Source of the DNA: Bacteroidales bacterium
GTDB taxonomy: Bacteria > Bacteroidota > Bacteroidia > Bacteroidales > JAADJA01
DNA length: 64,000 nt
Assembly: GCA_020052415.1 (NCBI GenBank)
Contig: JAGVPB010000014.1
Span: forward strand, 1 to 64,000
Direction of reading: 5' to 3'
Shown: positions 21,953 to 30,613 of the stretch, one piece after another
Position numbering within the stretch: the stretch's first letter is position 1
Layout: each line of letters starts with the position of its first letter
Notes under the pieces: model-generated
Seen by the model: the letters and a program-made list of their open reading frames with translations, nothing else
Databases searched by the model: none
Told to the model about the DNA's origin: nothing
Program-made: the position numbers and the translations under genes

Positions 21953-23002
21953 CTATCTTCTTTGAACCAGGTCTAAGAAGATCGCCAAATGATCGCTGAA
22001 ACCGCCATGGTAGCTGAATCCTTCATAAGTCCTGAAGGGCTGTTTACCAAAGTGTACCCGGTCGTCCTCAAGTAAAAAATCCGGCGCGTAAACCTGCGCA
22101 CCCTCCGGTGAAACAATGAGTTTATTACCTTCCAATAAAAGATTTCCAGAAACAATGAACTGATCAATCACACTCCAGTCTTCACGGTATTTGTTAGTTC
22201 CCATGTCAGCCTTTTTTTGAAGTACAACCATCATGTCAAATAAATCAGAATTATTTAATTCTTTTGAGTTGGTTTTAGCTCTCAGAACAGATTGAATGCT
22301 TTCATCCGAAGGTTCATCATTGAAATCGCCCATGATGATGATATTCGGGTCGCCATCTGCTTTTTGTAATGAATCAACCTTATTTCTGAGTACAGAAGCC
22401 ACAAACATCCTTTTGGGTTTCGAATCTTCATAGCCTCCGTACCGTGACGGCCAGTGATTTACAAAGAAATGAACCGTATCGGCTTCACCCAGTATGCCTT
22501 TAATATAAAGAATATCCCTCGTTTTAAAGGCCGTATCATCATGCAAATTAATTCGGATGGGATATGAACGCAATGGACTAAACAGAGCGGGCCGATATAG
22601 GAAGGCAACATCTATCCCTCGCCTGTCGGGTGAATCAAAGTGAATAATTTTGTAACCTGAATTTTTCAAAGGAGTTTCATAAACCAGTTTGTTGAGAACG
22701 AACCGGTTCTCAATTTCACATAAACCGATTGCTGCGGGTGGATTCCATTCGCCGATACCCAGGATGACTTTGTAAATATTATTCAGTTTTTGATAGAATT
22801 TTTTATTGTTCCAGTGTCTTTCTCCTTCCGGGGTAAATTCATCGTCATTGGTAAGGCTGTCGTTAAAGATGTCGAACAGGTTTTCGACATTGTAAAATGC
22901 AATCCGGCTTTTTACAATGGAATCATGTGTTTGGCCAATTTCCTGAGCAGACACAACGCTTAGAACGGACAGCAAAATCCATAAAATTCCCACTAATTTC
23001 AT
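21953..23002 (-). CDS. Exported endonuclease/exonuclease/phosphatase (EEP) family hydrolase
   Basis: This 349-residue protein has a signal peptide (about 1-19). EEP motifs in order are: FYNVENLF (metal-binding Asn), GLCEIENR (catalytic Glu), RRGIDVAFLYR, VNHWPSRYGG (His), IIMGDFNDEP (Asp/Asn pair) and GGFSDHLAIFLDL (final SDH). All catalytic residues are present, so it should be an active metal-dependent phosphodiesterase or phosphatase. It starts 11 bases after the TonB receptor gene upstream (23014-26295), so the two are one operon. The pair suggests scavenging of nucleic acid or other phosphodiester material; the substrate is inference. Confidence 0.85.
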   Translation of the reverse strand: MKLVGILWILLSVLSVVSAQEIGQTHDSIVKSRIAFYNVENLFDIFNDSLTNDDEFTPEGERHWNNKKFYQKLNNIYKVILGIGEWNPPAAIGLCEIENRFVLNKLVYETPLKNSGYKIIHFDSPDRRGIDVAFLYRPALFSPLRSYPIRINLHDDTAFKTRDILYIKGILGEADTVHFFVNHWPSRYGGYEDSKPKRMFVASVLRNKVDSLQKADGDPNIIIMGDFNDEPSDESIQSVLRAKTNSKELNNSDLFDMMVVLQKKADMGTNKYREDWSVIDQFIVSGNLLLEGNKLIVSPEGAQVYAPDFLLEDDRVHFGKQPFRTYEGFSYHGGFSDHLAIFLDLVQRR

Positions 23003-23013
23003 TTAATTTACTT

Positions 23014-25011
23014 TCACATTTTTACAATTAATCCCGCCCTGATAATTCGCGGAGTATCATAATAATCGGGATTCATCAGCTTATATTGATAAAGCATCCG
23101 GTAGGTATCAGGATTGGTTGTACTATTGATGTTGTTTTGCCATTGCGGTGAACTCAGATATCCGTCATCATCGGGTATCCCGGTCTCCGGATTGATATAA
23201 AACAGGTTCTGTTTGTTGAACAGGTTCTCGATCCGAAGATAAACACTCACCGTCATGCCTGAGCGCGGCAATGAGAATCCTTTTTCGATCCTTATATTCA
23301 CAAGGTCTATATCCGGGGAATACGAGTAATTCATGGTTTGGTTGGTCATTGTAGAATTCAGGAATACAGACGCGTTTGACAACTTCATACCGGCACGATG
23401 CTGATGATAGAGTCCGATGCCGGAATTTTTAAAAATGGCTCTTAACGCTTTACTGCCCGAAAACACAAATCTTCCCGTTTGGTAAGTAATATGTGTATTC
23501 CACACCACATCGGAGATGTTCATAAATGCCCTGTCTTCATCCGAAATAAAAGTTTTCGTTAGGGATGAGCCGGCTGCAATTCCTGATGATTTGGGAGAAA
23601 AATAATTTATGGAAACGGTGAAATTTTTAGTTTGAATCAATTCCTCATTATTCAGAATTGTAACGTAATCTCTCGGGTAAGCACCGATCAGAGTTTCCAT
23701 GTAGTTATAATTTTTAATGAATACATGCAAATAAGAAACATCGGCGAATAATGTTTTATAAATTCTTGGTCTGATCCCGATATTAGCTTTATAAATTTTT
23801 ATCGGTTTCAATGAAGGATTGTCCACAACTCCGGGGACATTGAATATAAAATAATATTGATCGGGTCTGAAGGTATGATAAGCAACCGGGTTTTGAGAAT
23901 AGGAATTCAAATTAAAATAAATGTCCCCGTATTTGGTTTGTCGGTTTAAATTAATTTGCGGTAAAAACGATGTTATTGCTTTATAGTCTTCAAATACCTT
24001 TGAATTCACACTGACCTGTTGAGGATCCTGTAAAAGCGGTGAAATTCCAGAGCCTGCGTCAAGGACAGTGGGATCCTGAATCTCAACTCCATCAGCGTCG
24101 TACCAGGTATATTCGTTTCTATAACCCGTAATAAAAGTAGGGGAAGCAACATTATCTACATAAACTACATAATCACTACCCATATTTCCCGGATGATTAA
24201 CAGGATCTCCCGACAGATTGCTTGTTTCATCAACGGTCCTTGCCGGATACAGGAGAAACGGATCTTTCAGTACCGGCTGATTGGCATTGAAATTATCAAT
24301 CCTTAAGCCTAATGAAATGTCCAGTTTTTCCCATTTGAAATTATCTCCCAAATACACTGAAAAATAGGTTGGCCGGTAAGCATCAACCAAATAATTATCA
24401 AAAAAGCCATTTTCACTCTGTTTACCTTTCAGCTTATTGCCGGAATAATCATAACCCTGAGCATTAACAATATAATTTCCATCGTTCAGTAGCTCTGTCG
24501 GTGAAAACATATCAAGAGTAAATAAATTTTCAGGGACTATCATTGATTGCATCTCACCATTTTTGTCATAATAATCAATGGTGTTGCTGATCATATCATA
24601 CGAATCGGTGAGGATAAAATCCAGCCCGTCAACGGGAAGTCCAAGTTTTTGTCGCAGGTTATTATCAAAATCAAATTGCGCCACTTCATCGTACTTCCTG
24701 TAGTAATAAATGATATTATCAGAAGCAAGCTGATCCAATTGAGGATTTTCCATGTCCAGTTCCTTAAGATGAAAATTAGTAAATCCCCTCATCTTATTCC
24801 ACAAATTCACTGGATTGATTGTGAAAGCCCTTTCAACTTTGTTTAAATATTCCGCTCCAGCAAAAAAGTGATGCGATTTATAATCCACATTCACCTGAAA
24901 TGTTCCCCTGTACTTTTCCTTTTCAGAATAACCATAATTCTTACCAATCGTACCCTGACTGTTCCATAATCCATATATTTTATCCGGGTTGTCACCGTTC
25001 AATAGCCCTCC
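23014..25011 (-). CDS. TonB-dependent receptor, C-terminal barrel part (after in-frame TGA)
   Basis: This frame continues directly, in the same reading frame, from the TGA that ends the 25012-26295 part. The first codons after the stop read GGLLNGDNPDKIY, a normal barrel-loop sequence, and no ATG start stands near; the first possible start is a TTG at 25002. The 660-odd residues are barrel strands and loops (NYFSPKSSGIAAG, IRIEKGFSLPRSGMTVSVYLRIENLFNKQN) ending at KAGLIVKM-like residues. Together the two parts make one receptor of about 1,090 residues. Unless the stop is suppressed or a sequencing error, this half is not expressed. Confidence 0.75.
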   Translation of the reverse strand, partial: GGLLNGDNPDKIYGLWNSQGTIGKNYGYSEKEKYRGTFQVNVDYKSHHFFAGAEYLNKVERAFTINPVNLWNKMRGFTNFHLKELDMENPQLDQLASDNIIYYYRKYDEVAQFDFDNNLRQKLGLPVDGLDFILTDSYDMISNTIDYYDKNGEMQSMIVPENLFTLDMFSPTELLNDGNYIVNAQGYDYSGNKLKGKQSENGFFDNYLVDAYRPTYFSVYLGDNFKWEKLDISLGLRIDNFNANQPVLKDPFLLYPARTVDETSNLSGDPVNHPGNMGSDYVVYVDNVASPTFITGYRNEYTWYDADGVEIQDPTVLDAGSGISPLLQDPQQVSVNSKVFEDYKAITSFLPQINLNRQTKYGDIYFNLNSYSQNPVAYHTFRPDQYYFIFNVPGVVDNPSLKPIKIYKANIGIRPRIYKTLFADVSYLHVFIKNYNYMETLIGAYPRDYVTILNNEELIQTKNFTVSINYFSPKSSGIAAGSSLTKTFISDEDRAFMNISDVVWNTHITYQTGRFVFSGSKALRAIFKNSGIGLYHQHRAGMKLSNASVFLNSTMTNQTMNYSYSPDIDLVNIRIEKGFSLPRSGMTVSVYLRIENLFNKQNLFYINPETGIPDDDGYLSSPQWQNNINSTTNPDTYRMLYQYKLMNPDYYDTPRIIRAGLIVKM

Positions 25012-26295
25012 TCATAATTGTAACTGATCTGAATTGCTCCAGTATTGTACCTCCGGATAAAGTTCATAAATCTGCTCAGTAAATCGTGCTGTTTCCGGAT
25101 TATAATTAAGATTCTGAAATGTGTACGCGGTGTCATGATCCCAGCTATTCAAAACATAAACATTTTCATAGGTTACGCCATCAATAGTAATTTCATCCCT
25201 GAGTTCATAAGTCGGAATTTTGGAGGTTGTATATTTCCCGAGATAGCCATATTCAAAATACCTGTCTTCGTGGCGGGGATCCTGCTTCCTGAAATAATAA
25301 TTGGAATACTGCAGATTAATCTTGTATCCGATTTTCAAATCTTCAGACAAGCTAATTTTATGATCGACGTTCAGGAAGTTGTCAAAATTACGGTAAAAAG
25401 TTTCAGGATTGTTTTGGTAGTTCAGCATGTCATTTTCAAAAACATAATCTTTCCCCCAGTCTATTTTGGCATAACTGCCCAAAGTAAGATTGATGTTTTT
25501 TGTTATGGGGAACAAGAGTTTCAAAAATGTATTCGACTTTTTGCGATCTGCATTCGGATGTCCCATGGCATCTTCGATGTCAGCCTGATCCAAAAATTCA
25601 GCATTTAAAAAGGTCACTCCAGCCAATCCTGATAACCGCAAAGGATTTTCCGTAAGTGAACTTTGTGTGTCATCAGTAACAGCATACTTTTTTTCACTGC
25701 TTGGGGCTGGATCATTGGTAAAGGAATAATTTGAAGCTAAGTAAAATCCGGGAATTTTCTTTTTGGATTTCGCAGCTTTTGAAAATCTGAAAGGTCCCCC
25801 AATATTCAATTCCACAGCATTATTTTTCAGTCCTTTATTCAGGGTTGAAAAACCATCCAGATCGAAATGAAATTTATCCTCATAAGACTGGGTTTTGAGA
25901 TCTATCAAACTACCTGCAACGTTACCATAGCTGATTGGTTGATTAACTCTGTAATGCTGAAAATCGGCTATTGCCCGGTAAGGAAAATCATTGCCATCTG
26001 TTACCTGCATGCCATCAATGAAAATAAAACCGCCGGTCGCCTCCAGTCCGTCGGAAACAAGCTTTCCATTCTTCAGGTAATAAGTATTCGGACTTGAAAG
26101 TGCATATCCGTTGAAGGTTCGGAAAGGCATGAACTGAAGTCTGTCTGAAGGTATGGCATCAACGGATAATTGCTCTCCGGCCCATTTACTTTGTGGATTG
26201 ATCTCGTGGATACTATCATTCTGAGCACTGATCCTATTAGTACATAGCATCCAACCTGAAAGAAATATTCCTGCGGTTAAAAGATTTTTCCTCAT
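25012..26295 (-). CDS. TonB-dependent receptor, N-terminal part, ended by in-frame TGA
   Basis: There are 427 residues: a signal peptide (MRKNLLTAGIFLSGWMLCTNRISAQ), a short linker, then a divergent plug (SPNTYYLKNGKLVSDGLEATGGFIFIDGMQV ... YGNVAGSLIDLKTQSYEDKF) and the first barrel strands. The frame ends in the middle of a barrel strand (YWSNSDQLQL, then TGA), and the barrel continues in the same frame. This plug carries no CarboxypepD_reg domain. The EEP hydrolase lies downstream in the same operon. The break is a single nonsense codon, not a frameshift. Confidence 0.75.
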   Translation of the reverse strand: MRKNLLTAGIFLSGWMLCTNRISAQNDSIHEINPQSKWAGEQLSVDAIPSDRLQFMPFRTFNGYALSSPNTYYLKNGKLVSDGLEATGGFIFIDGMQVTDGNDFPYRAIADFQHYRVNQPISYGNVAGSLIDLKTQSYEDKFHFDLDGFSTLNKGLKNNAVELNIGGPFRFSKAAKSKKKIPGFYLASNYSFTNDPAPSSEKKYAVTDDTQSSLTENPLRLSGLAGVTFLNAEFLDQADIEDAMGHPNADRKKSNTFLKLLFPITKNINLTLGSYAKIDWGKDYVFENDMLNYQNNPETFYRNFDNFLNVDHKISLSEDLKIGYKINLQYSNYYFRKQDPRHEDRYFEYGYLGKYTTSKIPTYELRDEITIDGVTYENVYVLNSWDHDTAYTFQNLNYNPETARFTEQIYELYPEVQYWSNSDQLQL

Positions 26296-27249: not shown

Positions 27250-29220
27250 ATGCAACGAAAATTTGACACTATAAAGAATTACCAGGCAACCCGTGAAACC
27301 ATTGGATATGTAACCAGGAAAATGGCAACACAGGAAGATTATGACCGTATCGGCTTCATGTCGGGACTGGAAGTGCATCAGCAGCTTAAAACAAAGCATA
27401 AGCTCTTTTGTAAATGTCCTGCAGGAATTTACCAGAACCTGGAAAATTATGATGCTGAAATAATCCGGCACATGCGCCCTACCCTGAGTGAGCTAGGAGA
27501 ATACGACGGCACTGCTCTGATGGAATTCAAAACAAGAAAGGAGATCGTTTACCACCTGTCGAATGATTCCGCATGCACCTATGATATTGACGATACTCCA
27601 CCCTTTAAATTGAATGCCGAAGCCCTTGAAATTGCGATAAAAATTTCCCATCTCTCCAAACTTAATATCGTCGGTGAAGTTCACATTACCCGGAAACAGT
27701 ACCTCGACGGAAGCATCCCAACGGGCTTTCAAAGAACCGGGATCATCGGCGTTGAAGGAGTAATTCAGCTTCCGCATAAAAAGATAAGGCTGATCCAGCT
27801 AAGCCTTGAAGAAGATTCCTGCCGCGAGGTTTCCGACATCGGCCACCGGCGTGTTTACCGAACCGACAGGCTTGGCATGCCTTTGATTGAAACAGTCACT
27901 TATCCCGACTGTGTGAACCCGTATGAAGTTATGGAAACCAATAATTATATACGTTTTCTAAACCGGAGTACAGGTTTGGTAAGAACCGGGATCGGAGCAG
28001 GCAGGCAGGATGTAAATGTCAGTTGCAGGGGTGGATCACGGGTCGAAATTAAAGGCGTGGCTCATACCAAATGGATACCCGAACTCACACATAATGAAGC
28101 TTTTCGTCAGTGGTCGCTGCTTCATATAAAAAAACTTCTCTGTGTTAAGGTTCAAAAAATCGCTGACTGGAAAATTCATCATATTGAACTTAATGGAATT
28201 TTCAAATCGAAAAATCCAATACTGAAGGAAGCTTTCCTTAAAAAAATAAAAGTAATCGCGGTAAATCTCAATGGATTCAAAGGAATTCTATCGCATTTTA
28301 CACAGCCTGGCAAAATGTTCGCCAACGAAATTGAAGAGCGCCTGAAAGTGATTGCCTGCCTCGAAAGGCCATTCATGTTACATTCCGAGGAATTTGAACC
28401 GGTTATTAGTAAAGATGAATGGGCAGAAATCTCCGATTTGCTGAGCGCCGGACCGGACGACGCCCACCTGGTTTTTTGGGGTCCTGACGATGATATCAAA
28501 ACCGCGCTTGAAACTATTGAAGAAAGATGTCTGATGGCTTTTGACAGGGTGCCCAATGAAACCAGAAAATCTTTTGAAAACGGAACTACTATTTTTGAAA
28601 GGGTGTTGCCGGGAGCCGACCGTATGTATCCAGATACCGATTCCTCCCCTATTCCGCTGGACAATGAATATATCGAAGAGCTCAGAAAAGATATACCTGC
28701 AGATATCATTGATCGTGTAAATCAGTTGAGAAAATGGAAAATCCCGCAGGATACCTATACTTACATTTTAAGCAAGAATCACTACCGGCTGCTGGGACGC
28801 ATCATCTCCGAACTCGAAATTGATCCTGTTTTTGCAGGGACATTTATCGGCCACAGGCTTAAATTTGTTGAAGGGCATTACAAGTCGGCAGAAGCCTTTA
28901 ACTGTAAGATAGTATATGCCATGTTCCGCTTTTTAAAGCAGCAGAATCTCGATTTTGAACTCGCCGATAAAATGATCCCGGTTCTCTATGAATTTCCAAA
29001 GATGGATTTCGAATCGGTGCTCGCAAGCATCGGATTTAAAAGGATACCGAAAGATGAAATTTTATCGCATCTGCCTTTCCTCAAAAATAAATTTGCTGAA
29101 ACAGCCAAATCCAACAATGCAACGAACCTGATCAACTGGATCATGGGAGAGCTGAGGGAAGAAGCGCTGGGGAATATTTCGCTTAAGGAATTGGCAGAAC
29201 ACATTAAAAACAACAATTAA
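27250..29220 (+). CDS. gatE: Archaeal-type Glu-tRNA(Gln) amidotransferase subunit E
   Basis: GatE is the kinase/transamidase and tRNA-binding subunit of the GatDE enzyme that turns Glu-tRNA(Gln) into Gln-tRNA(Gln). It has 656 residues. The catalytic GatB/E core carries GLEVHQQL (39-46), a CxC zinc half-site (Cys54, Cys56), EYDGTALMEF and YLDGSIPTGFQRT (151-163). A GAD insertion (about 300-410: VNLNGFKGILSHFTQPGKMFANEI), which is specific to GatE and absent from GatB, separates the core from the helical/YqeY-like tail. An N-terminal extension of about 33 residues precedes the core; an ATG at 27322 would remove most of it. gatD follows after 7 bases. The family is normally archaeal, so a bacteroidete copy is unusual. 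Confidence 0.9.
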   Translation: MQRKFDTIKNYQATRETIGYVTRKMATQEDYDRIGFMSGLEVHQQLKTKHKLFCKCPAGIYQNLENYDAEIIRHMRPTLSELGEYDGTALMEFKTRKEIVYHLSNDSACTYDIDDTPPFKLNAEALEIAIKISHLSKLNIVGEVHITRKQYLDGSIPTGFQRTGIIGVEGVIQLPHKKIRLIQLSLEEDSCREVSDIGHRRVYRTDRLGMPLIETVTYPDCVNPYEVMETNNYIRFLNRSTGLVRTGIGAGRQDVNVSCRGGSRVEIKGVAHTKWIPELTHNEAFRQWSLLHIKKLLCVKVQKIADWKIHHIELNGIFKSKNPILKEAFLKKIKVIAVNLNGFKGILSHFTQPGKMFANEIEERLKVIACLERPFMLHSEEFEPVISKDEWAEISDLLSAGPDDAHLVFWGPDDDIKTALETIEERCLMAFDRVPNETRKSFENGTTIFERVLPGADRMYPDTDSSPIPLDNEYIEELRKDIPADIIDRVNQLRKWKIPQDTYTYILSKNHYRLLGRIISELEIDPVFAGTFIGHRLKFVEGHYKSAEAFNCKIVYAMFRFLKQQNLDFELADKMIPVLYEFPKMDFESVLASIGFKRIPKDEILSHLPFLKNKFAETAKSNNATNLINWIMGELREEALGNISLKELAEHIKNNN

Positions 29221-29227
29221 TTCAACT

Positions 29228-30613
29228 ATGACACAGGATTTTTTCCAGGGATACAAGGGCGAATCATTGGGCGTACTAAAAAAATATAACGTCAGGGTGT
29301 GGGGGCAGGCTGAAATTTTTACGATACGCGGGCCTTTTAGCGGAACCGTATTGCCCCGGTCAGAAAATGACGACGACCAGCATATCGTAATTAAAATTGC
29401 GACCGGCTATAATATCGGGATTGATATTAAGACCATCACCGGCATGAAGGAAACCGGTTATAAAAAAGCCGTTTACAAGATTCCGGAAAAGGAATTTCCT
29501 GTCACTCCGGGACTGCCAAGAGTAAAGCTGTTCGGAACCGGAGGAACCATCGCCTCACGTCTTGATTATCGTACCGGGGCCGTTATTCCGGCATTCTCAC
29601 CCGGTGAACTCTATGGTGCCGTTCCCGAACTTGCCGATATCTGCAACCTGGATACCGAAAAGGTATTTGCGGTTTTCAGCGAAAACATGGGCCCAAAACA
29701 GTATATAGCTCTTGCCAAAGCCATCGGAAAGGAAATTGAAAACGGAATTGACGGCATTGTGATCGGGCATGGAACAGATACTCTTCATCATACCGGGGCA
29801 GTTCTCACATTTATGGTTCAGAACCCGCCGGTTCCGATTGTCCTTGTAGGATCGCAGAGGTCCTCCGACCGGCCGAGTTCCGATGCTGCAACCAACCTGA
29901 TGAATGCGATGTACACTGCCGGACATGGCGATATTGCAGAAGTGATGGTGTGCATGTTCGGGCCGACCTCCGACGTTTATGGATTACTTCACCGGGGAAC
30001 AAGGGTGAGGAAAATGCATTCATCCTACCGGTCAACTTTTCGAACCATAGGTGATACACCGGTTGCGAGAGTGAGGCGGGGTGAACTCATTCATTTCAAG
30101 AAAGACTATAAACCAAGGCGGAAGGACAAGGACGTAAAGATAATACCCTATTTCAACGACCAGGTAACCATGCTGTATTATTATCCCGGTATTAAGCCTG
30201 ATACTATTGATATGCTCGTGGAAGCCGGTTACAAAGGGATCATCATCGTCGGAACCGGTTTGGGCCATGTGAACAAGGAACTTTATCCTGCTATTGAAAG
30301 AGCTCATGCCAAAGGCGTTCACATGTTTATGACCCTGCAAACCATCTGGGGCTATGTTCACATGTTCGTATATGATACAGGACGGGATATGATGGCCAAG
30401 GGAATCATTCCGTGTGGAAATATGTTGCCCGAAGTCGCATGGGTTAAGTTAAGCTGGATATTAGGTCAGACCGACGATCCGGCAGAAGTAAAACGGATGA
30501 TGCTGACCCCGGTAAATGATGAGATCACCGACAGAGAACCTTATAATGGCTATTTGGTTTACCAGGGCGGAGTGCCTGCCGTTGAGGAATTCATCCGAAG
30601 GGTGCATAAATAA
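29228..30613 (+). CDS. gatD: Archaeal-type Glu-tRNA(Gln) amidotransferase subunit D (asparaginase-like)
   Basis: GatD is the amidase subunit that frees ammonia from Gln or Asn for GatE. It has 461 residues. An N-terminal beta domain (about 1-90), absent from plain asparaginases, marks GatD. The type-I asparaginase core has GTGGTIAS (103-110; Thr104), HGTDTLHHT (181-189; Thr183, Asp184) and Lys262 in RKMHSSY, giving the Thr-Thr-Asp-Lys catalytic set. It lies 7 bases after gatE, in one operon, and is followed by a bidirectional terminator. A plain L-asparaginase is excluded by the N-terminal domain and the partner gene. Confidence 0.9.
   Translation: MTQDFFQGYKGESLGVLKKYNVRVWGQAEIFTIRGPFSGTVLPRSENDDDQHIVIKIATGYNIGIDIKTITGMKETGYKKAVYKIPEKEFPVTPGLPRVKLFGTGGTIASRLDYRTGAVIPAFSPGELYGAVPELADICNLDTEKVFAVFSENMGPKQYIALAKAIGKEIENGIDGIVIGHGTDTLHHTGAVLTFMVQNPPVPIVLVGSQRSSDRPSSDAATNLMNAMYTAGHGDIAEVMVCMFGPTSDVYGLLHRGTRVRKMHSSYRSTFRTIGDTPVARVRRGELIHFKKDYKPRRKDKDVKIIPYFNDQVTMLYYYPGIKPDTIDMLVEAGYKGIIIVGTGLGHVNKELYPAIERAHAKGVHMFMTLQTIWGYVHMFVYDTGRDMMAKGIIPCGNMLPEVAWVKLSWILGQTDDPAEVKRMMLTPVNDEITDREPYNGYLVYQGGVPAVEEFIRRVHK

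Follow-up and report, generated by a model that had tools for sequence, protein, structure and literature searches.

A TonB-dependent receptor-like gene, probably inactivated by one recent in-frame TGA, in a Bacteroidales genome with selenocysteine machinery

Organization of the split gene

The window, the whole 64,000-nucleotide stretch of DNA analysed here, carries on its minus strand a gene resembling those of TonB-dependent receptors that is read as two parts in one frame (Table 1). The initial annotation had described these parts as separated only by a TGA, followed by Gly-Gly-Leu-Leu and, further downstream, by an intact EEP gene. Coordinates, frame and stop are all as it claimed; the codons directly 3' of the TGA do specify Gly-Gly-Leu-Leu, after which the frame is open to the stop at 23014, and the Pfam match of the EEP product agrees with an intact gene. 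The whole gene of ancestral type has about 1,093 codons, of which the TGA is codon 428; it is the sole lesion in 3.3 kb, the other 1,092 codons containing neither stop nor frameshift.

The N-terminus of the 427-residue ORF resembles a signal peptide and is followed by a plug-like region and about seven barrel strands. No signal peptide was found on the 3' part, and no ATG occurs among the first 73 codons after the TGA. Both halves come out as coding in the coding score. Together with the unbroken homologues and the invariant residues after the stop described below, these scores show that the split frame exceeds what chance would produce.

Table 1. Positions of the split gene, its interruption and neighbouring genes in the window.
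Feature	Position	Strand	Basis or remark
5' part of TonB-dependent-receptor-like gene	25012..26295	-	ORF, 427 aa, ATG start, ends in TGA
In-frame TGA codon	25012..25014	-	Sequence; stop at site in 0 of 28 homologous places and 0 of 26 loci (overlapping sets)
3' part, same frame	23014..25011	-	665 sense codons + TGA stop; rest of barrel
AGGAGG-like stretch before first TTG (25002) of 3' part	25002..25010	-	Considered as restart signal, rejected
EEP gene (endonuclease/exonuclease/phosphatase family), downstream	21953..23002	-	Intact; Pfam PF19580, E 4.9e-104
GatE	27250..29220	+	Glu-tRNA(Gln) amidotransferase
GatD	29228..30613	+	Glu-tRNA(Gln) amidotransferase

The product is a predicted TonB-dependent outer-membrane receptor

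Searches of Pfam and NCBIfam gave no family for either half or for the read-through protein. At E ≤ 1 the read-through protein has 0 Pfam families, and its intact orthologue L080 has 0 at E ≤ 0.1; no Plug or TonB_dep_Rec match is seen in the gene itself. A PDB sequence search with L080 and a tblastn search against a plasmid collection gave no match, and Rfam returned just two sub-threshold chance matches on the locus.

A longer, intact paralogue in the same genome, L002, carries CarboxypepD_reg and Plug domains and is 39.6% identical to the split gene over positions 41-1089. An AlphaFold model of L080 (mean pLDDT 76, pTM 0.77) matched solved TonB-dependent transporters in Foldseek (best E 1.5e-22, target-normalised TM-score 0.66), with PfeA, OprC, FhuA and XusA among the best 50 matches. 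From the homology to L002 and the predicted fold of L080, we conclude that the gene encodes a predicted TonB-dependent outer-membrane receptor. The earlier name of 'TonB receptor' is thus sustained by a Plug-bearing homologue and a modelled fold, and finds no counterpart in a Pfam or NCBIfam family of the gene itself. What the gene has in common with Bacteroidota TonB-dependent receptors such as L002 is this homology and the transporter fold of its orthologue; in contrast to L002, it has no N-terminal CarboxypepD_reg and no detectable Pfam or NCBIfam domain, and it is interrupted by the TGA.

Mapped onto the L080 model, the stop falls at residue 428, within a loop of low confidence that lies between strands 319-338 and 472-490. 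About seven barrel strands, out of roughly 22 in total, precede this position, so the first product would be without most of the barrel.

No relative carries the stop

Of 60 genomes searched, comprising that of the window and its relatives, 32 have a gene homologous to the 3' part (E ≤ 0.001). Within the genus, 7 of 17 genomes have a homologue at E ≤ 1e-150, a distribution by which the orthologue is classed, from sequence matches, as a putative accessory gene. The closest orthologues are 62-63% identical to the 3' part. In the 28 homologous places that extend across the junction, neither a stop nor a Cys was seen at the TGA column. The same holds for 26 loci that were examined further (24 from GTDB plus L033 and L002, with several genes recurring from the 28 places), where neither a stop in the aligned part nor a Cys at the column was seen; one of the 26, the homologue L007/L085 of genome G011, leaves the junction uncovered because a run of N lies exactly around it.

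The residue at the stop column is variable, being R, H, A, N, G, N, S, N, N, A and A in 11 relatives, and some of the relatives' codons are one base from a stop. The GGLxNG motif right after the stop has G, G, L, N and G invariant in 15 aligned relatives. The EEP gene adjoins the orthologue in 3 of the 24 loci (L080, L081 and L089); synteny is therefore limited to near relatives.

The lack of further stops in the gene limits the time since its inactivation. If a stop arises from 5.1% of single changes (no transition bias), or from 3.9% when transitions are weighted 3, neutral divergence since the gene was inactivated has a 95% upper bound of 0.018 or 0.024 per site, under about 2%, in a calculation that counts stops only and leaves frameshifts out. 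As even the nearest relative shares no more than about 62% identity, this gives a maximum age for the stop and no minimum. The lack of any further lesion implies that the stop is either young or an assembly error.

The rates of evolution are consistent with this. For the window gene, terminal branch lengths are 0.37 (5' part) and 0.38 (3' part), while stem plus tip for the sister pair L080/L033 amounts to about 0.22 and 0.29-0.30, respectively; the window gene's branch is somewhat longer than its sister's in both parts, and on these lengths the 3' part shows no acceleration. Where the other relatives all agree on a residue, the window sequence differs at 1 of 30 columns in the 5' part (range of the others 0 to 8) and at 5 of 113 in the 3' part (0 to 9). 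Synonymous divergence between the window gene and its nearest relative is saturated and gives no dN/dS value for the 3' part; the dN/dS values of 0.08-0.17 come from the pair L080 and L033 only. A complete absence of decay is also expected of a functional gene that is read through.

UGA is used as a normal stop codon

The genome contains the release factor 2 gene, prfB (L064, own contig C60, about 17358), and the bases before the prfB match include AGGAGG-TTT-CTT-TGA-C, a programmed frameshift site that we take from textbook prfB to be that of RF2. This AGGAGG-type site occurs in prfB though the genome does not use Shine-Dalgarno motifs at start codons. TGA ends 14 of the 40 ORFs in the window, and 55 of 199 complete ORFs over 300 codons in 489 kb sampled. 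The frameshift site and the TGA-ending ORFs of the window exclude a changed genetic code. None of the 43 ordinary tRNA matches has the anticodon TCA, which is found only in tRNA-Sec, and a suppressor tRNA was rejected on these grounds.

We also scanned 489,002 bases, made up of the window and 22 further stretches of the same genome, for genes split by a single stop. The 22 candidates, mostly ordinary neighbouring genes that share a frame, comprise 16 with TAA, 5 with TGA and 1 with TAG, and no surplus of TGA-split genes was seen in the sequence scanned; the scan is not very sensitive, as it missed the TGA gene beside selA described below.

No support for selenocysteine at the window TGA

The genome encodes a tRNA-Sec with anticodon TCA, SelB and two SelD-like proteins; SelA is, on our reading of its place next to selB and of its sequence, probably also present. 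With this machinery at hand, selenocysteine had to be tested as the meaning of the window TGA. Over the 47 bases from the UGA on, folding is poorer than in shuffles (z +1.44), 189 of 200 of which fold at least as well. A constrained scan after the UGA found no SECIS-like hairpin, although the same scan recovers the E. coli fdhF element at -12.6 kcal/mol.

In the published practice set out in the sections of PMC1088965 on this subject, selenoproteins are called from Cys/TGA pairs in homologues together with a SECIS; at the window TGA we found neither. A selenoprotein family of TonB-dependent receptors, of the FCYXU motif type and represented by NF049945, is on record in the portions of PMC13188914 and PMC12013277 that concern it, and this lends the selenocysteine reading some plausibility. 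The window gene is like the family described there in having an in-frame TGA in a genome with selenocysteine machinery. In contrast to that family, as those portions present it, the gene has neither a Cys at the site or immediately ahead of it nor a SECIS, its TGA is not conserved, and it does not match the model: no NCBIfam model, NF049945 included, matches the read-through protein at E ≤ 10, the dates making it likely that NF049945 was in the library. We consider it scarcely credible that the receptor is a selenoprotein with selenocysteine at this UGA. The machinery is there, but the hairpin is absent, Cys occurs in none of the 28 homologous places, no relative has the TGA, and the likely true selenocysteine gene of the same genome has its TGA in all loci found. 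Selenocysteine was rejected at this codon on SECIS, Cys and conservation.

A probable selenoprotein gene beside selA

A second gene with an in-frame TGA lies on the minus strand at 178397-180277 of own contig C79 (L123:10398-12278) and adjoins tRNA-Sec and selA-selB-yedF-selD. Its product has CARDB and a T9SS-type C-terminal sorting domain, and the TGA falls in GCYCVD-U-GLTPP. All 14 loci, from this genome and 13 others among the 17 of the genus searched, have TGA in that column; the remaining three genomes gave just weak matches among the matches listed. The context in the 14 loci is MG(C/N)(F/Y)C(V/L)(S/D)-U-G. selA adjoins the gene in 10 of these loci, and in the others the flanks were short or no selA was found.

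About 20 bases after this TGA is a conserved hairpin that is paired in 84.6% of cells, a value reached by 0 of 500 shuffles; both-sided change is seen in only 2 of 10 pairs, and most apical loops have no G in their first two positions. Distant homologues have no Cys at the TGA column (8 of 8), and NCBIfam gives sorting-domain and FlgD-type matches only. The terms 'CARDB', 'T9SS' and 'Bacteroid' do not occur in the main text of PMC13188914, and none of the papers searched brings selenoprotein, T9SS and Bacteroidota together. These sequence features suggest that the gene encodes a probable unreported selenoprotein that is probably secreted. It serves as the example of a meaningful UGA in this genome, and the window TGA has none of its marks.

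Interpretation of the interrupted gene

Taken together, our data argue that this is probably a TonB-dependent outer-membrane receptor gene inactivated by one recent nonsense codon. A fresh nonsense mutation was raised by the initial annotation along with population variation and readthrough, and it is the best supported of the three: the TGA is unique among relatives, the residue at its column is variable, no second lesion is present, and evolution of the 3' part is no faster. The readthrough that was offered beside it fares poorly, there being no SECIS and, among the 43 ordinary tRNA matches, no suppressor tRNA in a genome where UGA is used as a normal stop. One mark of a pseudogene by nonsense mutation, an early stop in frame at a position that encodes an amino acid in the orthologues, is found here. 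Known single-nonsense pseudogenes have one in-frame stop, unbroken orthologues elsewhere and no decay yet, all as in the window gene, which shows no notable difference from them.

The chief rival is an error of sequencing or assembly, or a minority strain allele picked by the assembler, with the true gene intact. We regard this as unlikely, though the assembly is a draft in 94 contigs and the TGA is the sole lesion in 3.3 kb and is found in no relative. Against it, the frame is otherwise perfect, and the assembly contains no second version, the matches being one of full length and two weak paralogue pieces; moreover, if depth is good, a consensus assembly seldom has single bases wrongly substituted. 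Recombination or phase variation from a second copy was rejected, as the genome has no such copy. It is also conceivable, though improbable, that a surface receptor is being switched off by a stop that is leaky or varies between strains, perhaps under pressure from phage or ligand. If so, both alleles would be present in populations, or a small fraction of readthrough would keep a little receptor at the surface.

Partial or regulated readthrough by a near-cognate tRNA, which would leave the receptor functional at a low level, agrees with two halves that are intact, in frame and free of decay. We judge it very unlikely, given that the stop is not conserved, no structure follows it, the ordinary tRNA matches contain no UCA anticodon and the scan showed no surplus of genes split by TGA. 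Less likely again is an arrangement of two cistrons, in which the TTG at 25002, preceded by the AGGAGG-like stretch, serves as a restart site for translation and a single receptor is put together from both parts. The AGGAGG overlaps the stop and lies close before this in-frame TTG; however, the 3' part has no signal peptide and would remain cytoplasmic, and the stretch stems from the conserved Gly-Gly codons, which relatives have too. Shine-Dalgarno motifs at start sites occur in 6 of 206 ORFs compared with 5 in shuffles and are not used in this genome, and reinitiation at the TTG was rejected for want of any excess before starts.

On the favoured reading of a recent nonsense codon, ribosomes would stop at the TGA and release a truncated product consisting of the signal peptide, the plug and about seven of some 22 strands. 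This product would be unable to close the barrel and would presumably be degraded, while the 3' part, with no signal peptide, would be untranslated or useless. The loss may be tolerated because the orthologue is accessory within the genus and the longer paralogue L002 is retained. Accessory outer-membrane receptors are commonly lost through a single nonsense change; this is ordinary biology and would explain why the annotation is split. As a control the case is useful, since a meaningless in-frame TGA, with no SECIS, no Cys and no conservation, can be told from a meaningful one in a genome that decodes UGA as selenocysteine.

GatD and GatE in the window

On the plus strand the window also holds genes for GatE and GatD (Table 1). 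The GatD/GatE amidotransferase is usually called archaeal. GatE was found in 29 of the 60 genomes searched, and in a control search of 14 genomes its matches were confined to the four archaea.
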